Virus record (IMG/VR): IMGVR_UViG_3300032249_000712
Span: 1 to 50,225 of that record
Reading direction: 5' to 3' (one strand)
DNA length: 50,225 nucleotides
From: a virus
Shown here: piece after piece, positions 395-30,363 of the stretch
Position numbering within the stretch: position 1 is the first letter of the stretch
Layout of the letters: every line of letters starts with the position of its first letter
Made by a program: the position numbers and the translations under genes
Notes under the pieces: model-generated
Databases searched by the model: none
What the model saw: the letters and a program-made list of their open reading frames with translations, nothing else
Told to the model about the DNA's origin: nothing

Positions 395-419
395 TCCTGG
401 ACAAGATTTAAAACTGTCC
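395..419 (+). ncRNA. Repeated 3'-UTR hairpin, copy 1
   Basis: TCCTG leads into a stem GGAC (399-402) / GTCC (416-419) closed by a 13-nt loop reading AAGATTTAAAACT. It is one of five copies (others at 2806, 3621, 4274 and 5452). The loop is conserved while the stem bases change in compensating pairs. It lies 8 nt after a stop codon. Its function is unknown. Confidence 0.6.
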
Positions 420-446
420 GAACATTTGTTCTAAAAGCCCGAGGGG

Positions 447-467
447 TTTTCCACAGGTTTATCCACA
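447..467 (+). promoter_or_regulatory. Tandem DnaA-box-like sites
   Basis: TTTTCCACA (447-455) and TTATCCACA (459-467) both match the bacterial DnaA box consensus TTWTNCACA and are three bases apart in the same orientation. They lie in a 188-bp intergenic gap. They could bind host DnaA for replication initiation or for transcriptional control. Two boxes alone do not prove an origin. Confidence 0.45.
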
Positions 468-521
468 GGGCGATTATGTGATTAAAAACACACTCCAGAT
501 TCCCCAGATTACTGCGTCTAA

Positions 522-551
522 TTGGATTTTGTCGGTCGTATCTGATAGGAT
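522..551 (+). promoter_or_regulatory. Candidate promoter for the 576-1590 gene run
   Basis: TTGGAT (522-527), an 18-bp spacer, then TAGGAT (546-551). An AACGAAAGGAA ribosome-binding region precedes the ATG at 576. It is weaker than the other left-arm promoters. Confidence 0.4.
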
Positions 552-575
552 AAAGATATAACGAAAGGAAAACTA

Positions 576-761
576 ATGGGAAAGTTCAAAGATACTTTAA
601 TGGAAATACTTGCTCATGATGAGTGCTATGGCGCAGGTTGGCAATTTGTAGGAAATGCGATAGACTATGATGTATGGGCGTGTGAGTGTAATCCTTACAA
701 TATCCCTGCTGATGAAATACAGGAATACCACCAATTATTCAAAACTAAGGAGAACGCATAA
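576..761 (+). CDS. Small acidic phage protein, 61 aa
   Basis: I do not recognise this gene. A good ribosome-binding site (GAAAGGAA) precedes the ATG, and the stop overlaps the next ATG (TAATG). The middle carries YDVWACECNP, similar to the YDV and CDC region of the product at 29-178, so the two may be diverged copies of one family. It is soluble with no membrane segment. It opens a tightly coupled run of five genes to 1590. Confidence 0.6.
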   Translation: MGKFKDTLMEILAHDECYGAGWQFVGNAIDYDVWACECNPYNIPADEIQEYHQLFKTKENA

Positions 762-970
762 TGGAATATACTTATTCACTTACTACTTCATATGATGGAG
801 AGTTAGTAAATACCCTGCGAGTTAGCGATATGCTAGAGGCAGTTAGTGCTTGGGATAAATGTGTAGACTATGGCTTTGCTAAAGAATACGCAACCTACAA
901 TTTGTCTGACCCAACAGGTAAGATGTATACTAAAACCTTCTACACTAATGGAGAGGTCGTAATTAAATAA
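761..970 (+). CDS. Hypothetical phage protein, 69 aa
   Basis: I do not recognise this gene. It is coupled to both neighbours by one-base TAATG overlaps, which is the main evidence that it is real. It is rich in Tyr and Thr with alternating hydrophobic residues, suggesting a small beta-rich soluble protein. It has no cysteine motif beyond a single Cys. Confidence 0.6.
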   Translation: MEYTYSLTTSYDGELVNTLRVSDMLEAVSAWDKCVDYGFAKEYATYNLSDPTGKMYTKTFYTNGEVVIK

Positions 971-1266
971 TGGGAAGCATAACAGCCATTGGTCTAGCGG
1001 ATACAACGCTAGACTTAGAAACACAATTAAAGTATCACTTACAAGGTAATCACTATCCACCAATACCAACAGTAATGGTGCAGCCTTGCATTGAAGCAAT
1101 TGACGCTTACTATGATGAAGACTATTCTCGTAGAATAGAATTGCCAGTTGTTGATGGCTTTCAAATTAGTTGGAAAGGTAATACTTGGACTACCGCCAGC
1201 GCATTGGTATCACACGCACACCTAGAATGGTTCATTGAGCCTAGTGATGAGGATATAGATGAGTAA
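970..1266 (+). CDS. Hypothetical phage protein, 98 aa
   Basis: I do not recognise this gene. The start overlaps the preceding stop, and the last codons overlap the ATG of the 31-aa gene at 1259 (ATGAGTAA). The C-terminal half is Trp- and acid-rich, ending DEDIDE. The opposite-strand frame at 833-1099 is a shadow of this gene and the one before it. Confidence 0.6.
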   Translation: MGSITAIGLADTTLDLETQLKYHLQGNHYPPIPTVMVQPCIEAIDAYYDEDYSRRIELPVVDGFQISWKGNTWTTASALVSHAHLEWFIEPSDEDIDE

Positions 1267-1354
1267 AGACTTGCAAGATAAATTAGACGCAGTTGCAAAA
1301 ATATTAGAGCCTATTCTATGGGAAACGCTAGCAGAAATTGAGGAACAAGAATGA
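1259..1354 (+). CDS. 31-aa helical peptide
   Basis: This short frame overlaps the previous stop by eight bases and the next start by four (ATGA), so it sits exactly in phase with the local coupling pattern. The peptide (MSKDLQDKLDAVAKILEPIL and onwards) is amphipathic and probably one helix ending in acidic residues. Its function is unknown. Confidence 0.5.
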   Translation: MSKDLQDKLDAVAKILEPILWETLAEIEEQE

Positions 1355-1590
1355 TTGATTTAGAAAATGATGATACCATTCAAATTGTGGACTATGTAAA
1401 AGTTGATATGCTAACTTCAGGGCAATTAGAGATTGATGATAATATCTTAATTGCTGATGAGGTTGTGTCTATTGTAGATATAGTTTCATTACCTGATGGA
1501 TACACTTTAGAAATTGTAAATGATTTTGGTGAAAGAGAAATAATTCAAGTTGGTGAGTTTGATCAATTTGATTTAATGATGTTGCAGTAA
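1351..1590 (+). CDS. Acidic beta-rich phage protein, 79 aa
   Basis: I do not recognise this gene. It overlaps the previous gene by ATGA. The strongly acidic sequence has short repeated I-V-D strands (ILIADEVVSIVDIVSLPDGY) and resembles a small beta-barrel. It is the last gene of this unit; a CCCGAGGG block and a fresh promoter follow. Confidence 0.6.
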   Translation: MIDLENDDTIQIVDYVKVDMLTSGQLEIDDNILIADEVVSIVDIVSLPDGYTLEIVNDFGEREIIQVGEFDQFDLMMLQ

Positions 1591-1636
1591 GGGGCGCCCG
1601 AGGGCGATTTGTCCGATTTGTACTAATTAAGGGGAG

Positions 1637-1665
1637 TTGATATTTTTCCCATATTCTGCTAGAAT
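1637..1665 (+). promoter_or_regulatory. Promoter for a leaderless transcript (Gp88-like gene)
   Basis: TTGATA (1637-1642), a 17-bp spacer containing TTTTTCCCAT, then TAGAAT (1660-1665). Only six bases separate the -10 box from the ATG at 1672, so the mRNA should start at or next to the AUG. Upstream lies GTCCGATTT and CTAATTAAG, also found before the promoter at 4372. Confidence 0.75.
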
Positions 1666-1671
1666 TTTCAT

Positions 1672-2400
1672 ATGACTACGCCACAGTTAAAGAGATCTCA
1701 TGACAGAAAGGTTGCTAATCTTGTTACGAAAAACGGAAAGCAAGCCGCAATTGCAAACACGTTCGGATTACCCGCTGGCAAATCTTATTCATGCCCTGGT
1801 GCCACTAGTGTTTGTGAGAGCGTTTGCTACGCAGGAAAACTTGAAAAGTTATTCAAAGGAGTAAGGGCTAACCTCCTACACAATTGGGAATTATTAAAAG
1901 ACGCAGATGAATCTAATATGATTGATCTATTGCAGAATATGATTAATGATTTTAAAAAAGATTGTGAAAAGAAAAATGCACCATTGTTATTTCGTATTCA
2001 TTGGGACGGTGACTTCTTTAATGATACCTACACCATGGCATGGAAGACGATCATCCTTAACAATACAGATATAAAGTTTTGGGTATACACTAGAGTACAC
2101 TCTGCAGCGGTAATGCTTAAGGGTATACCTAATCTATCTTTATACTATTCCACAGATAGTGAGAATAAGGAGATAGGTGTTAGTTTAAAGAAAGATCATG
2201 GTGTGCGCCTTGCATACCTTGCAAAGAATTTTGCCATAGGTCAAGCAGATATGAAAGAGTTATTCAATAAACCTGGTGCTAAGTGTCCTGAAAACTTAAA
2301 GTCTATTCCGCTTATCTCAACTAATGGCTCCGCTTGCGTATCATGCGGATTGTGTGTATACTCTAAGAGCGATATAGTTTTCTCATCGTCTAAAAAATAG
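1672..2400 (+). CDS. Gp88-like phage protein, Cys-rich, 242 aa
   Basis: This resembles the 'gene product 88' family of mycobacteriophages, whose function is not established. Near residues 40-52 it has a CPGATSVCESVCYAGK cysteine cluster, and near the C-terminus a CVSCGLC cluster. Between them is a WDGDFF segment. Paired Cys clusters suggest bound metal or an iron-sulfur centre, but I see no canonical radical-SAM CxxxCxxC. The start is the ATG at 1672, directly after a strong promoter with no room for a leader. It appears to be expressed alone or with the 20-aa frame that follows. Confidence 0.65.
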   Translation: MTTPQLKRSHDRKVANLVTKNGKQAAIANTFGLPAGKSYSCPGATSVCESVCYAGKLEKLFKGVRANLLHNWELLKDADESNMIDLLQNMINDFKKDCEKKNAPLLFRIHWDGDFFNDTYTMAWKTIILNNTDIKFWVYTRVHSAAVMLKGIPNLSLYYSTDSENKEIGVSLKKDHGVRLAYLAKNFAIGQADMKELFNKPGAKCPENLKSIPLISTNGSACVSCGLCVYSKSDIVFSSSKK

Positions 2401-2408
2401 GGGTAACT

Positions 2409-2471
2409 ATGGAACTAGTAATTCTAACTATCTTATTTATCATGGTCTTATTCGCAGGTATGGGACACTAA
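2409..2471 (+). CDS. 20-aa hydrophobic micropeptide
   Basis: This short frame begins eight bases after the preceding stop, with GGGG just upstream. It encodes an almost purely hydrophobic single helix, MELVILTILFIMVLFAGMGH. If translated it would be a one-pass membrane peptide. The evidence is only the composition and position. Confidence 0.35.
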   Translation: MELVILTILFIMVLFAGMGH

Positions 2472-2501
2472 TTGTCCGTTTTGTCCGTTTCGGTATGGTG
2501 G

Positions 2502-2517
2502 TGTGAGATACATCACA
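2502..2517 (+). promoter_or_regulatory. CRP/GlxR-like operator
   Basis: TGTGAGATACATCACA is a perfect TGTGA-N6-TCACA palindrome with TA at the centre. Its centre lies about 83 bp before the predicted transcription start of the promoter at 2558. It is one of three such sites in the left arm. Confidence 0.6.
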
Positions 2518-2525
2518 GATATCAT

Positions 2526-2542
2526 ATCTCAAAATATGAGAT
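2526..2542 (+). promoter_or_regulatory. Palindromic operator candidate
   Basis: ATCTCA (2526-2531), five bases, then TGAGAT (2537-2542): a perfect 6-bp inverted repeat just upstream of the promoter at 2558. It may bind a dimeric regulator. No T-run follows, so it is not a terminator. Confidence 0.35.
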
Positions 2543-2557
2543 TATTAAAAATATAAC

Positions 2558-2586
2558 TTGTATTTTTATCCAAAAAATGTTAGACT
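2558..2586 (+). promoter_or_regulatory. Promoter for the small SH3-like gene 1
   Basis: TTGTAT (2558-2563), 17-bp spacer ending AAAAAATGT, then TAGACT (2581-2586). The spacer end, the -10 box and the following AGTAAGCAAA leader are nearly identical to those of the promoter at 3329. Confidence 0.65.
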
Positions 2587-2620
2587 TAAACAGTAAGCAA
2601 AAACCAACCAAAGGAGAAAC

Positions 2621-2785
2621 ATGTCCGTAGCAAACGCAATATACAAAGTAGGCGACACCTACACAAGCCAAAAGTCAAAGGCAACAGGCGTTATCAAAGA
2701 AATCGTGCCACAGGCAAATGGTAATGTTCGTGTTAAGTTAGATGTTAATGGCTCTACTCGCTGGACAACTTGGACAGCAAAGTAA
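2621..2785 (+). CDS. 54-aa SH3/KOW-like small protein, copy 1
   Basis: The frame is preceded by a strong AAAGGAGAAAC ribosome-binding site. The product reads YKVGDTYTSQKSKATGVIKE and then alternates polar and hydrophobic residues, like a five-stranded SH3 or KOW barrel. It is a paralogue of the 56-aa product at 3397: both have Y-(K/Q)-(V/I)-GD, T-S-K, TG(V/R)I, then RV-L near the end. Promoter, leader and downstream hairpin are shared too. An RNA- or nucleic-acid-binding role is possible but only inferred from the fold type. Confidence 0.6.
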   Translation: MSVANAIYKVGDTYTSQKSKATGVIKEIVPQANGNVRVKLDVNGSTRWTTWTAK

Positions 2786-2805
2786 TCTTAGCCTAGTGGC
2801 TAAAG

Positions 2806-2830
2806 TCCTGAGCATGACCAAAAACTGCTC
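2806..2830 (+). ncRNA. Repeated 3'-UTR hairpin, copy 2
   Basis: TCCTG, stem GAGC (2810-2813) / GCTC (2827-2830), 13-nt loop ATGACCAAAAACT. It starts 21 nt after the stop of the 54-aa gene. Confidence 0.6.
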
Positions 2831-2879
2831 AACTTAATACCCCCATCAACTACACCAAACGAAAAGGAAACCAAACCAA

Positions 2880-3302
2880 ATGGCAAGAGGTAAAGCAATA
2901 CAGGTAAAAATCCCTACGGCTAAAATCATTACTGCCTTAGAAGCAAAGTTAGCAAAGACAAAGGCTGACTACTCAAAGCAAGATGAATACGAAGCCAAAT
3001 ACAAACTGGCAAAAGAAGCATGGCAAAAAGCACTTGGCGCATGGGCTATTGAGAACTTCTCAAAGGCGCAAGACCTACGCACCAACTATCGTCAATGGAA
3101 CAAAACGCTAAATGTTGATTTTGATATTATCACAGATGGCAACGACTTTCCACAAGAGCCTGAGAAGGACTACGAGGAAATCCACCGCCATACTTACAAT
3201 GAGATGGTAGAGGAAATTGAGAACGCTATCCGTATTCTCAAAATGACAGACGAGGAAACAGTTAATACCTCAACCTACAACGCTATTGCTCGTTATCTTT
3301 AA
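2880..3302 (+). CDS. Hypothetical helical phage protein, 140 aa
   Basis: I do not recognise this gene. The ATG at 2880 follows AAAAGGAAACC. The first 60 residues are Ala/Lys-rich and helical, probably a coiled coil (ITALEAKLAKTKADYSKQ), followed by an acidic helical C-terminus. There is no membrane segment or cysteine motif. It lacks its own obvious promoter and may be read from 2558 through hairpin copy 2. Confidence 0.65.
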   Translation: MARGKAIQVKIPTAKIITALEAKLAKTKADYSKQDEYEAKYKLAKEAWQKALGAWAIENFSKAQDLRTNYRQWNKTLNVDFDIITDGNDFPQEPEKDYEEIHRHTYNEMVEEIENAIRILKMTDEETVNTSTYNAIARYL

Positions 3303-3328
3303 TTAGATAATTAGGTGGGGAAGGGTAT

Positions 3329-3357
3329 TTGACTTCCCCCCTAAAAAATGTTAGACT
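3329..3357 (+). promoter_or_regulatory. Promoter for the small SH3-like gene 2
   Basis: TTGACT (3329-3334), 17-bp spacer ending AAAAAATGT, then TAGACT (3352-3357). Its 3' half and the leader that follows duplicate those at 2571-2600. Confidence 0.7.
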
Positions 3358-3396
3358 AAGTAAGTAAGCAAACCACCACAACAGAAAAGGAAAATC

Positions 3397-3567
3397 ATGA
3401 CACTAGGCGGATACACATATCAAATTGGTGATTTATTCACCACTAGTAAAACAGGCGTAACTGGTAGAATTGTAAAGTTCTCACCAATTAACTCTAAACT
3501 TACTAGAGTATCTCTAAAGTTAGCAAATGGCGCACAACGCCTTGCTATGGTAAGCACAACTAAATAA
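3397..3567 (+). CDS. 56-aa SH3/KOW-like small protein, copy 2
   Basis: A ribosome-binding site (GAAAAGGAAAATC) precedes the ATG at 3397. The product (YQIGDLFTTSKTGVTGRIV and onwards) aligns along its length with the 54-aa product at 2621. It is a small, basic, beta-rich protein without cysteines. The whole unit (promoter, leader, gene, hairpin) seems to have been duplicated and then diverged. Its function is not known. Confidence 0.6.
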   Translation: MTLGGYTYQIGDLFTTSKTGVTGRIVKFSPINSKLTRVSLKLANGAQRLAMVSTTK

Positions 3568-3620
3568 TTTATCTCTGATAAGCACTTGGCTTAATTGCTA
3601 GGTTATTCCTGAGATAAGAC

Positions 3621-3646
3621 TCCTGAGCATGAGTTCTAAACTGCTC
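3621..3646 (+). ncRNA. Repeated 3'-UTR hairpin, copy 3
   Basis: TCCTG, stem GAGC (3625-3628) / GCTC (3643-3646), loop of 14 nt (ATGAGTTCTAAACT), one base longer than the other copies. It starts 54 nt after the stop of the 56-aa gene. Confidence 0.6.
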
Positions 3647-3657
3647 ATATTTTAATT

Positions 3658-3673
3658 CCCCGCAAAAGCGGGG
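3658..3673 (+). terminator. GC hairpin, possible terminator
   Basis: CCCCGC-AAAA-GCGGGG forms a compact 6-bp hairpin just after hairpin copy 3. No T-run follows, so it is not a canonical intrinsic terminator. It may stop transcription weakly or protect the 3' end. Confidence 0.35.
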
Positions 3674-3682
3674 CCGAGGCAA

Positions 3683-3698
3683 CGTGATCTAAATCACA
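3683..3698 (+). promoter_or_regulatory. CRP/GlxR-like operator
   Basis: CGTGATCTAAATCACA matches the CRP core with one mismatch in the outer arm and the same central TA. Its centre is about 75 bp before the predicted start of the promoter at 3731. Confidence 0.55.
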
Positions 3699-3730
3699 TC
3701 CCATTATGTGAGACTAATTAAGAACTGGAC

Positions 3731-3759
3731 TTGCATTTCCACAATCATCCTGATATTAT
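3731..3759 (+). promoter_or_regulatory. Promoter for the 154-aa gene
   Basis: TTGCAT (3731-3736), 17-bp spacer, TATTAT (3754-3759). A leader with AAAAGGAACC precedes the ATG at 3784. Confidence 0.6.
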
Positions 3760-3783
3760 TGTATTAACAGAAAAGGAACCCCT

Positions 3784-4248
3784 ATGAGCGACGTAATGAC
3801 ACAAGAACAACTATCAGTGCCCTATAACCCTAACCTATTGGTTACATATAAATATGTTCCAGAGACATATGCAGCACCAGAAAGCCCTACATTCATGACT
3901 GATAAGGTTACTCAGATTGAGTGGGACCTTCACAATGGACGCAAGAATGCTGCAATTGCTGCAGAACGACGTGCAGATATTGAAATGCTTGAAGAGCAAA
4001 TTCCTGAATGGTATGACCCAAACTATTCTAAAGAAGATGTTTTAAAAGCGCTAGCACAACACTTTGGTATTGATCCCATAAAACAAATGAGTGTATATGG
4101 AACTATTACATTCAGTGGAACTATTAATATTCCAATCTCAGAGATTGAAGACTTTGACCTAAGCAATGTAACCATTGACGCAGAAGTAAGTTCATATGAC
4201 TATGACGGAGACTTTACTGTGGATGATGTTTCAATTGAAGAGAATTAA
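3784..4248 (+). CDS. Hypothetical acidic phage protein, 154 aa
   Basis: I do not recognise this gene. The N-terminal third is Pro/Tyr-rich, the middle is helical (about residues 45-100), and the C-terminus is strongly acidic and beta-like (SSYDYDGDFTVDDVSIEEN). There is no membrane segment and no Cys. The middle and end resemble small hypothetical proteins I recall from actinobacteriophage early regions. It has its own promoter, a CRP-like site upstream and hairpin copy 4 after the stop, so it is a single-gene unit. Confidence 0.65.
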   Translation: MSDVMTQEQLSVPYNPNLLVTYKYVPETYAAPESPTFMTDKVTQIEWDLHNGRKNAAIAAERRADIEMLEEQIPEWYDPNYSKEDVLKALAQHFGIDPIKQMSVYGTITFSGTINIPISEIEDFDLSNVTIDAEVSSYDYDGDFTVDDVSIEEN

Positions 4249-4273
4249 GGTTTGATAGGGGGCTATCAAAAGA

Positions 4274-4298
4274 TCCTGGCCACGATCTAAAACTGGCC
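4274..4298 (+). ncRNA. Repeated 3'-UTR hairpin, copy 4
   Basis: TCCTG, stem GGCC (4278-4281) / GGCC (4295-4298), 13-nt loop ACGATCTAAAACT. The loop is nearly identical to copy 5 while the stem bases differ in compensating pairs. It is followed by CCCGAGGG at 4306-4313. Confidence 0.65.
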
Positions 4299-4371
4299 AT
4301 AAAAACCCGAGGGGCCCGAAATGTCCGATTTATCCTAATTAAGAAGATTAAACCATTTTCCCTAATCCTAG

Positions 4372-4400
4372 TTGACATTGTCTGCCATGACTGCTAAACT
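4372..4400 (+). promoter_or_regulatory. Strong promoter for the DUF932 gene
   Basis: TTGACA (4372-4377), 17-bp spacer, TAAACT (4395-4400). It is preceded by GTCCGATTT (4323-4331) and CTAATTAAG (4335-4343), the block also seen at 1611-1631. Confidence 0.75.
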
Positions 4401-4426
4401 TAGTTAAAACAACCGAAAGGATAAAA

Positions 4427-5443
4427 ATGGCTCATGAGTTAGAAACTCAAAACGGTGTGGTAAGTTTTGCATCATTCCGTGAACCTGCATGGCACAATCT
4501 TGGTACTGTATTTGATACTGAGAAAAATACTAACGAAATGTTAGTTGCTGCTAACTTAAATAATTGGAATGTTAGATTAGAGGATTTAGAAATCCCATCT
4601 AGTTTAGTATCTGATAAGCAATACCAATATGTAGTTCGCACTAACCCTACTGATAAATCTCAAACTGATGTTTTGGGAATTGTTGGTGAGCGTTATGTTC
4701 CATTACAAAATGAAGATTTGTTTTCATTTGGTGATAACATTCTTGATGGTGGGGGTCGCTGGGAAACTGCTGGCTCCATTCGTGGTGGTCGTGTAGTATT
4801 TGGCTCTCTTGCATTAGAGCGTGAAACTGTATTAGACCCTAACGGCGTGGCAGATGTTGTTAAAACTTATCTGCTTATTAACACATCACATGATGGCTCA
4901 ATCGCTATTCAAGCAAGCATAACGCCTGTTCGTGTTGTGTGCGCTAACACTCTTAATGTGGCACTTAACCGCACTAAGAAAAAAGATGGCGTAAAGCAAT
5001 CTTTCAAAATCCGTCATACACAAACTGCTGAGGGCAAAATAACTGTTGCTCGTCAGGCACTAGGCATGGCTAACGCTTACATGACTGAGTTTGATAAGAT
5101 GGCTCATGCCATGATAGCAAAAGAAATCTCTGCTAAGGATTTCAACGATATTATTCTTGCTGCTTACCCTAAGCCTGAATTAGATACTAAGGGTGCTGTA
5201 AAGAAATGGGAAAACAAAGTAGATATGATTAACGATATCTATACTGGCGAATATAACGGAATGATTAGTGGCAATGCTTGGGGTGCGTTCAATGCACTAA
5301 CTGAGCGTTTAGACTGGTATCGTTCTGCTCGTGGTGGTAATAGCGAAAGCATGTTTGCTGCTGCTTCTGGATTTGACCCTGCAATTAACGCAGAGAAAAA
5401 TCGTTTGCTAACTATTGTGCAAAATACTTTGCAACTGGCTTAG
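4427..5443 (+). CDS. DUF932 / phage-plasmid-like protein (TIGR03299 type)
   Basis: The length of 338 aa and the opening MAHELETQNGVVSFASFREP, followed by AWHNLGTVF, are characteristic of the DUF932 family, widespread on phages and plasmids and often called phage/plasmid-like protein TIGR03299. Its biochemical role is unknown; links to DNA metabolism or anti-defence have been discussed. The rest is a mixed alpha/beta soluble protein with a VRVVCANTLN motif near residue 165, typical of the family. The ATG at 4427 follows CCGAAAGGA. It has its own strong promoter and ends with hairpin copy 5, then tRNA-Asp. Confidence 0.85.
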   Translation: MAHELETQNGVVSFASFREPAWHNLGTVFDTEKNTNEMLVAANLNNWNVRLEDLEIPSSLVSDKQYQYVVRTNPTDKSQTDVLGIVGERYVPLQNEDLFSFGDNILDGGGRWETAGSIRGGRVVFGSLALERETVLDPNGVADVVKTYLLINTSHDGSIAIQASITPVRVVCANTLNVALNRTKKKDGVKQSFKIRHTQTAEGKITVARQALGMANAYMTEFDKMAHAMIAKEISAKDFNDIILAAYPKPELDTKGAVKKWENKVDMINDIYTGEYNGMISGNAWGAFNALTERLDWYRSARGGNSESMFAAASGFDPAINAEKNRLLTIVQNTLQLA

Positions 5444-5451
5444 TAAAAAAA

Positions 5452-5476
5452 TCCTGAGCACGATTTAAAACTGCTC
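5452..5476 (+). ncRNA. Repeated 3'-UTR hairpin, copy 5
   Basis: TCCTG, stem GAGC (5456-5459) / GCTC (5473-5476), 13-nt loop ACGATTTAAAACT. It begins 9 nt after the DUF932 stop and ends 4 nt before the tRNA-Asp gene, so it may mark or guide processing between mRNA and tRNA. Confidence 0.65.
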
Positions 5477-5480
5477 CGCT

Positions 5481-5554
5481 GGTCCCATAGATCAATTGGT
5501 TAGATCGTTACCCTGTCACGGTAAAGGCTACGGGTTCAAGTCCCGTTGGGATCG
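5481..5554 (+). tRNA. tRNA-Asp (GTC)
   Basis: A complete cloverleaf. The acceptor GGTCCCA/TGGGATC has one G:U pair. The D-stem is GATC/GATC. The anticodon stem TTACC/GGTAA holds loop CTGTCAC with anticodon GTC. The T-arm is ACGGG-TTCAAGT-CCCGT. Discriminator G is followed by CA rather than an encoded CCA. It is probably co-transcribed with the DUF932 gene. Confidence 0.95.
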
Positions 5555-5633
5555 CAGGTGCCCGAGTGTAACATTTTTGTTATAATTGTATTACGTTGAG
5601 ATGATATTTTTCCCATTTTCTCATTACGGTATG

Positions 5634-28850: not shown

Positions 28851-28879
28851 AGTATATCAAATAATAGGCAGTTTTGCAA
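28851..28879 (-). promoter_or_regulatory. Promoter for the FmdB-like gene
   Basis: On the minus strand TTGCAA (28874-28879), 17-bp spacer, TATACT (28851-28856). A TAGGCA/TGCCTA hairpin overlaps the -35 and spacer, possibly an operator or a terminator of the HSP20 unit. Confidence 0.6.
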
Positions 28880-28900
28880 CATGCCTAGGTTGTTGTTGTT

Positions 28901-29317
28901 TTATTTTATTTTAATTACTTTAGGTTTTTTGTCTTCAGGAATAACACGAACAATATTAATTGTCAGCATTCCGTCTTTTAGTTCTGCACTAGAGACTTCC
29001 ATATATTCACCAAGAGCAAAAGATCGTACAAACTTACGACCAGCAATTCCTTTGTGAACTATTTCAGCATCTGTGACCTCAATAATTTCACCTTTAATTA
29101 CAAGGGTTCCATTATCTACTGAAACATTAATATCTTCTTTAGTAAATCCTGCGATAGCAACGGATAAACGGTATGTATCTTCATCTAGTTTCAGAAGATC
29201 ATACGGAGGATACGATTGTGAATTTACTTTATGTGCTGTATTTAAACGGCCTAACTCTCTGTTAAACCCAATAAAAAAAGGATCATTGAATAGATCCATT
29301 GCAAACTGTGTTACCAT
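28901..29317 (-). CDS. Small heat-shock protein, HSP20/IbpA family, 138 aa
   Basis: An alpha-crystallin domain: YPPYDLLKLDEDTYRLSVAI, then GFTKEDINVSVDNGTLVIKG and ELKDGMLTINIVR, which includes the GxLxI-like element of the family. HSP20 proteins are ATP-independent chaperones; phage copies, known in cyanophages, may help virion assembly or stress tolerance. AAAGGGGAATAAA precedes the start. Confidence 0.9.
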   Translation of the reverse strand: MVTQFAMDLFNDPFFIGFNRELGRLNTAHKVNSQSYPPYDLLKLDEDTYRLSVAIAGFTKEDINVSVDNGTLVIKGEIIEVTDAEIVHKGIAGRKFVRSFALGEYMEVSSAELKDGMLTINIVRVIPEDKKPKVIKIK

Positions 29318-30193: not shown

Positions 30194-30215
30194 AATAAAA
30201 GGATATCACAAGTCG

Positions 30216-30287
30216 TACCCCCAAGGGGAATTGAACCCCTGTTGCCACCGTGAAAGGGTGGTGTCATAACCACTAGACCATGAGGGC
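30216..30287 (-). tRNA. tRNA-Glu (TTC)
   Basis: A cloverleaf read on the minus strand. Acceptor GCCCTCA/TGGGGGT with G:U pairs as in actinobacterial tRNA-Glu. Anticodon loop CTTTCAC gives TTC between CACC arms. The T-arm is AGGGG-TTCAATT-CCCCT. Discriminator A; no encoded CCA. Confidence 0.93.
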
Positions 30288-30291
30288 ATGG

Positions 30292-30363
30292 AGCGAAAGA
30301 CGAGATTTGAACTCGCAACATCTACCTTGGCAAGGTAGTACTCTACCATTGAGTTACTTTCGC
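30292..30363 (-). tRNA. tRNA-Gly (GCC)
   Basis: A cloverleaf on the minus strand with acceptor GCGAAAG/CTTTCGC, D-stem ACTC/GAGT, anticodon stem CTACC/GGTAG with loop TTGCCAA (anticodon GCC), and T-arm GCGAG-TTCAAAT-CTCGT. It lies five bases upstream of tRNA-Glu, so the two form one unit. Confidence 0.93.

Follow-up and report, generated by a model that had tools for sequence, protein, structure and literature searches.

Among described RNAs, the closest comparison for the element reported here is coremin, an exoribonuclease-resistant RNA (xrRNA; class xrRNA_C) of beet necrotic yellow vein virus and others, found in 3′ untranslated regions, near stop codons and between genes (PMC10520033). 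Its core, GUCCGAAGACGUUAAACUAC, is characterized by a C-G closing pair, a loop with C first and A in the penultimate place, and three nucleotides followed by AAACU; loops of 6, 7 and 8 nt are tolerated, Xrn1 is stalled one nucleotide 5′ of the first stem, and scanning ribosomes are blocked as well (PMC10520033). Two further papers bear on bacteria: a flaviviral xrRNA stops bacterial RNase J1 (PMC5760640), and in Bacillus subtilis a 5′ roadblock stabilises the downstream mRNA (PMC3997798). The element in question occurs six times in IMG/VR virus record IMGVR_UViG_3300032249_000712, the whole 50,225-base stretch of which is referred to below as the window, and five of its copies had been described in an earlier note as a small hairpin with a covarying stem and a conserved loop.

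The element is a 27-nt H-type pseudoknot with fixed unpaired letters, lying just behind stop codons, and can be written (N)NNC-CU-NNNN-AH-GNN(N)-N..AAACU-N′N′N′N′. It consists of a first helix (S1) of 3–4 bp closed by C-G, a first loop (L1) of CU, a second helix (S2) of 4 bp, a second loop (L2) of AH, and a spacer, normally NN-AAACU, after which the 3′ strand of S2 follows at once. S2 is the stem of the earlier note, whose hairpin picture was wrong in that the loop letters GAY are paired: together with the bases 5′ of CCU they form S1. Folding without pseudoknots returned only the S2 hairpin and some extra pairs, and its energies were not used as evidence because the routine had no pseudoknot handling.

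Both helices are supported by covariation. A strict pattern of the conserved letters was found at no fewer than 120 viral loci, and the same pattern reversed at 3; the viral scans give minimum totals, and retrieval by pattern favours copies with GAGC stems. All four S2 pairs were present in 133 of the 135 matches listed, which comprise viral loci and the window (L001 and L002 repeat window copies). The base before TCC and its partner in the loop, neither of which was constrained, formed a Watson-Crick pair in 143 of 145 distinct copies (A-T in 108, G-C in 19, T-A in 15 and C-G in 1, with two exceptions). The loop GAY therefore pairs with the bases before CCU, and this covariation in S1 rules out a simple hairpin.

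When only CU, A and AAACU were fixed and no pairing was required, S1 (3/3) and S2 (4/4) were both complete at 255 places, with nine pair sets in S1, and the reversed-sequence control of this descriptor gave a single such place; loci fetched later via the matched patterns supplied 164 places with both helices complete (not deduplicated). In a scan that prescribed the helices and AAACU but left the other loops open, L1 was CU in 446/456 and CC in 8/456, and L2 began with A in 454/456, the reversed control yielding 15 places with this loop geometry. The fourth S1 pair was found in 361/454, whereas shuffling gave 205 on average and 235 at most. These scans required AAACU, and in a scan requiring neither loops nor AAACU the class CU/A/AAACU was still the commonest by a wide margin (185/751). 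Of the loop that had been taken as fixed, CU, A and AAACU are so; the remaining letters are not.

In an alignment of 72 copies, both sides change in 5 of the 7 pairs; the rows had been selected for pairing, so that the 100% pairing seen there adds no independent support, and two pairs of S1 are invariant in it. The family model was built on 72 of 73 distinct cores. Swapped patterns were searched in IMG/VR: GAGC with GGCC in S2 was found at 0 loci and GGCC with GGCC at 21, and GAC with GAT in S1 was found at 0 loci and GAC with GTC at 120 or more. A DNA-binding repeat is ruled out, as pairs co-change in both helices and both mismatched patterns tested are without a locus. The central proposal of the earlier note, a conserved RNA structure at the 3′ ends of genes without an Rfam family, is fully supported, and the check it suggested, a covariance model with a search of further phage sequence and an analysis of covariation, was strongly positive.

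Within the window, the five plus-strand TCCTG copies noted before (at 395, 2806, 3621, 4274 and 5452) were re-read with E values from 3.4e-11 to 4.8e-6, and their stems (GGAC/GTCC, GAGC/GCTC in three copies and GGCC/GGCC) and position past a stop codon were confirmed. Here the E values are those of the family model, whose alignment holds copies 1, 2, 4 and 5 and not 3, and distances from the stop are measured to a 3-bp S1. Copy 1 (393–419, +; S1 AAUC/GAUU, S2 GGAC/GUCC; E 9.9e-11) lies 6 nt past the stop of the open reading frame (ORF) at 178–387, copy 2 (2804–2830, +; S1 GUC/GAC, S2 GAGC/GCUC; E 3.4e-11) 19 nt past that of the ORF at 2621–2785, and copy 3 (3619–3646, +; S1 ACUC/GAGU, S2 GAGC/GCUC; E 4.8e-6), the spacer of which is one nucleotide longer, 52 nt past that of the ORF at 3397–3567. 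Copy 4 (4272–4298, +; S1 GAUC/GAUC, S2 GGCC/GGCC; E 1.9e-9) follows the ORF at 3784–4248 by 24 nt. Copy 5 (5450–5476, +; S1 AAUC/GAUU, S2 GAGC/GCUC; E 4.4e-11) stands 7 nt past the stop of a DUF932 gene (4427–5443) and, as had been observed, ends four nucleotides before tRNA-Asp (5481–5555, +). The element had been thought absent from the leftward genes, which does not hold: copy 6 (28866–28892, −; S1 CAAC/GUUG, S2 AGGC/GCCU) lies 9 nt past the stop of the Hsp20 gene (28901–29317), and, while its model E value is only 0.0093, it satisfies the descriptor too, both of its helices being complete.

The window carries phage genes, including terminase, DNA polymerase, UvsX-like recombinase, GP88, DUF932 and Hsp20, and a megablast search with its first 20 kb against 50,697 phage records found no match. 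The DUF932 gene is followed by the knot and tRNA-Asp in a block (window 4427–5555) that is also seen in related loci. A small hairpin, GATAG-GGGG-CTATC, lies at 4251–4269, between the stop codon and copy 4, and TAGTAG-GGGG-CTACTA-like hairpins occupy the corresponding place in related contigs (L020, L036, L040, L063, L078 and L097); this GGGG-loop hairpin looks like a second covarying element. In related contigs with such an upstream hairpin (L020, L036, L040, L063 and L078), S2 of the knot is GGCC/GGCC, GGGC/GCCC, GAGC/GCTC or GGGT/GCCC. Stretches like TTATCCACAGG, which we take to resemble DnaA boxes, recur behind the element in early intergenic regions (window 451–470; L006, L030, L101 and others). 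Finally, tRNA-Glu and tRNA-Gly adjoin at 30215–30363 on the minus strand, where the model search found no significant copy.

The relation of the element to genes was examined in 419 of 436 viral copies (loci L123–L139 were set aside), the genes of viral contigs being our own ORF calls. An ORF of at least 50 aa ends no more than 300 nt upstream of the element, or inside it, in 403 of these; the longest such ORF never ends less than 6 nt from S1, and in 138 of the 403 it ends at 6–10 nt. Among loci added later, 116 of 127 new copies have an upstream ORF, two of which end at 5 nt, 14 at 6 nt and none closer. When every ORF of at least 50 aa was counted across 522 distinct copies, 80 ended at 6 nt and 58 at 7 nt (138 together), 223 at 5–10 nt, and only 10 inside the element or within 4 nt of it, some perhaps being chance frames; under the longest-ORF rule, none of the 403 and 116 ORFs comes closer than 5 nt. 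In the annotated phages phig1e and Count the distance is 5 nt, and overall the distances are spread over tens of nucleotides. By the geometry of the ribosome, 6–7 nt past the stop is about the point at which mRNA enters when the stop codon occupies the A site.

With ORFs of at least 100 aa, the element lies between codirectional genes in 294/343 cases and before a convergent gene in 26/343; these counts supersede those made with short ORFs (convergent, 40/249 versus 802/3343) because spurious antisense ORFs inflate the latter. A tRNA starts 3–14 nt behind 69 of the 419 viral copies, tRNA-Asp in 63 of them, and a tRNA likewise stands behind the element in Arthrobacter phage Amigo and the crAss-like phage cr124_1. 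The median gap to the next codirectional ORF is 154 nt with the element and 18 nt without it, and a terminator-like site within 90 nt was found in 12/249 cases behind the element and in 278/3343 behind genes lacking it. The tail is poor in G, which makes up 2–9% per position over the first 7 nt, and positions 1–3 behind S2 are mostly A and C. Runs of five T are enriched close by: one occurs within the first 16 nt in 15.5% of 330 copies without a tRNA, compared with 1–2.5% further on, so that a minority of copies may end transcripts. An intrinsic terminator was nevertheless rejected for the element at large, since S2 has only 4 bp, terminator-like sites are few and an immediate U tract is rare. 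Pairs of copies no more than 120 nt apart are few (seven). Some coding sequence (CDS) annotations speak against an untranslated position: a glutaredoxin CDS spans the ICBM2 copy, minus-strand hypothetical CDSs cover that of NatCom_6392, and in phiEcoM-GJ1 a hypothetical CDS spans a variant described below.

Complete copies were found in 21 of 27 public phage records examined, with hosts from several phyla. These are phages of Synechococcus (two), Nostoc, Roseobacter, Lentibacter (three), Celeribacter, Paracoccus, Arthrobacter, Microbacterium, Mycobacterium, Corynebacterium, Lactobacillus (two), Moorella and Christensenellales, together with two crAss-like phages, a faecal phage and a gut microvirus; in StB12, S-EIVl and Javan271, which are BLAST matches, the copy is not complete by the same rule. 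Three further phages (flopper, Berlingot and phiEcoM-GJ1) have a variant with a G.A mismatch in S1. This is the form found in Chaseviridae phages of Escherichia coli and Erwinia, where S2, CU, A and AAACU are kept and U-A or A-U stands outside the mismatch, and five IMG/VR contigs match it, some of them equal in length to those phages. In two Lactobacillus phages (L283 and L299) the scaffold and major capsid genes come immediately after a complete copy, and the element or a relative of it, seen as a BLAST match only, holds the same place in L284 and L297. Two crAss-like phages (L282 and L289; positions 1959 and 2001) have two knots in tandem, the first of which closes S1 with G-C, not C-G. Among bacteria, taking one genome per species, the near-exact pattern occurs in 14 stretches, and a search of 199 genomes of one phylum gave a match at E ≤0.001 in 19, two being already among the 14.

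On bacterial chromosomes the knot is often joined to a mini-gene. A tiny ORF ending in xRKRYMLRPVAHCKEG(C/H) or similar precedes 29 of the 33 distinct chromosomal knots that have S1 GTC (two of the 29 share one ORF). The ORF family is led by a Shine-Dalgarno sequence, occurs in several phyla (L123–L136 and L259–L279) and specifies a conserved Cys/His peptide, for which NCBIfam holds no family matching the three ORFs that were searched. Minor letters have mean frequencies of 0.21, 0.16 and 0.47 at positions 1, 2 and 3 of its last 12 codons, in rows that are partly related, and the reading of the ORF as a peptide is therefore supported. In 24 of the 29 copies the knot starts 8 nt past the last conserved codon, those 8 nt themselves varying, and 12 of the 29 have no stop codon that is complete before the knot starts. 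At 12 loci the neighbours, named by eye, include regulators of redox and metal type (ArsR- and MerR-like) along with proteins resembling superoxide dismutase, thiol peroxidase and hybrid-cluster proteins. The constant 8-nt spacing after the peptide points to the ribosome, and in the mini-gene the knot would halt a translating ribosome at one fixed codon.

The element is probably an unrecognised and widespread marker or guard of gene ends. As to how it acts, we tentatively prefer, at somewhat less than even confidence and by analogy, a coremin-like mechanical roadblock to 5′-to-3′ movement at the ends of cistrons. Through the unpaired CU, A and AAACU the two short helices would be locked together in a compact knot, which, like the coremin xrRNA, would resist being pulled apart from its 5′ side. 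Such a roadblock could stop ribosomes that overrun the stop codon, as well as the 5′-3′ exonuclease RNase J where the host possesses it, so that the cistron and the RNA behind it (the next gene or a tRNA) would be translated and degraded separately. This reading is preferred because of the match to the coremin core, the block that coremin imposes on Xrn1 and ribosomes, the stopping of RNase J1 and the roadblock in B. subtilis; the covariation of both helices, the ribosome register and the Lactobacillus copies before scaffold and capsid genes also speak for it.

Several findings weigh against a 5′ roadblock. The G of the coremin loop and its second hairpin are missing. The upstream stop, not the gene to be protected, is the closer neighbour of the element in 34/38 gaps of 60–100 nt and in 41/51 gaps of 150–250 nt; gaps of 100–150 nt (15/30) and 250–700 nt (63/128) show no preference. 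The ribosome register would also be expected if the knot only had to stay folded next to ribosomes. In addition, RNase J cannot be the sole target, since phages of E. coli carry the variant and E. coli, to our knowledge, has no RNase J; as far as we know, cyanobacteria have no Rho, and their phages carry the element, which disfavours Rho in the same role.

The closeness to the upstream stop in the two gap classes is what the main rival would predict, namely that the knot shields the upstream mRNA at its 3′ end from 3′-5′ exonucleases such as PNPase and RNase R once RNase P, an endonuclease or a Rho-type event has formed that end, taking the place of a terminator hairpin. Enzymes of this direction are general in bacteria, the longer gaps behind element-bearing genes come with no more terminator-like sites, and a G-poor tail of about 7 nt fits as well. 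The tRNA cases are explained particularly well, as a cut by RNase P at the 69 tRNA-adjoining copies would bare an mRNA 3′ end. Helices of just 3–4 and 4 bp are slight for such a guard, however, and it accounts neither for the invariant CU, A and AAACU nor for the fixed 8-nt bacterial register, where the ribosome must often enter the knot; we regard it as a serious but doubtful explanation. Of the roles put forward in the earlier note, 3′-end protection or processing remains a serious competitor and a protein-binding site is still conceivable, and nothing specific was found for anti-termination.

Invariant unpaired letters on a scaffold of variable sequence would also suit a binding or processing site, where a protein that reads CU/A/AAACU in the folded knot cuts or marks the transcript between genes and before tRNAs. 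Such a protein could be an RNase, either of the phage or conserved among hosts, or a factor associated with the ribosome. The intergenic position and the tRNA neighbours agree with this, but the range of hosts would demand a very general host factor, and no candidate gene turned up beside the element, although no dedicated search was made; such a site is judged improbable. The same position, and the number of invariant unpaired bases, might be taken to suggest a self-cleaving ribozyme, in which some ten fixed nucleotides on two helices would form an active site that cuts between cistrons, and a new class would need no match to a ribozyme in Rfam. The alignment suggests no scissile site, however, and the element is smaller than any natural ribozyme class we know of, which makes this very unlikely. 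Least credible of all is a recoding signal, in which a pseudoknot 5–10 nt past the stop would cause readthrough or frameshifting. The pile-up at 6–7 nt is within the range of known recoding pseudoknots, but distances vary over tens of nucleotides and in 69/419 copies a tRNA, not a reading frame, lies directly behind, which excludes it for those.

It is conceivable, if rather doubtful, that coremin-type RNAs resistant to 5′-3′ exoribonucleases and ribosomes occur widely, both in bacterial chromosomes and in DNA phages whose hosts span many bacterial phyla. Were this so, mechanical RNA barriers to 5′-to-3′ movement, which are familiar from eukaryotic RNA viruses, would be among the general means by which phages and bacteria organise their genes, and RNase J would be one of their natural targets. 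A roadblock would connect phages with the xrRNAs of plant viruses and explain how adjacent phage genes are kept apart in translation and decay; it would also offer a 27-nt part for insulating genes in bacteria. An RNA so small, so strongly covarying and of such wide host range would be expected in catalogues. A second puzzle, now open to direct testing, is the bacterial mini-gene, in which the knot keeps a fixed spacing after a conserved Cys/His peptide.

Rfam 15 at its gathering score found only three tRNAs in the window, and on 11 bacterial loci only a thiamine pyrophosphate riboswitch elsewhere in the loci; on 15 loci, with E up to 1, nothing was found at the element. A known riboswitch or ribozyme was rejected for want of an Rfam match. 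The preQ1-I riboswitch and other small H-type pseudoknots share the same order of helices and loops and an A-rich last loop. Unlike these, the element is without an Rfam match, lies behind genes in several copies per genome and has other fixed letters. Repetitive extragenic palindromic (REP) sequences and bacterial interspersed mosaic elements (BIME) of enterobacteria, which are DNA repeats in the form of long imperfect palindromes, likewise occur several times per genome between codirectional genes behind stops; the element differs in being a covarying pseudoknot with fixed loop letters. With intrinsic terminators it shares a GC-containing stem behind genes and, after some copies, T runs, but the stem is of 4 bp and a tRNA may follow directly. 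A literature search found no description of the element; its coverage was thin for subscription journals and bioRxiv, and a large survey of microbiome RNA (PMC8040213) could hold it unnamed.

The element and the coremin xrRNA both have a first stem closed by C-G (448/454 in the element), a loop of the form C...A-N (first C in 454/456, penultimate A in 454/456) and three nucleotides with AAACU, followed by a helix (8 nt to the end of AAACU in 416/454), and both are found near stop codons and between genes; the chance of matching the coremin core letters is put by hand estimate at about 1e-5 to 1e-4, before allowing for other comparable motifs. The element was not classed as coremin because two defining features that were tested are absent. 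The loop consensus YGAD/YGNNAD is not seen, its second base being U (446/456) or C (8/456) and not G and its last base often C (40/456), and in place of an independent second hairpin (hp2) the strand behind AAACU pairs with the loop as a pseudoknot stem. Moreover, the element is carried by DNA phages and bacteria. As a class of RNA it appears to be new; as a kind, it is a small cis-acting pseudoknot with a coremin-like core.

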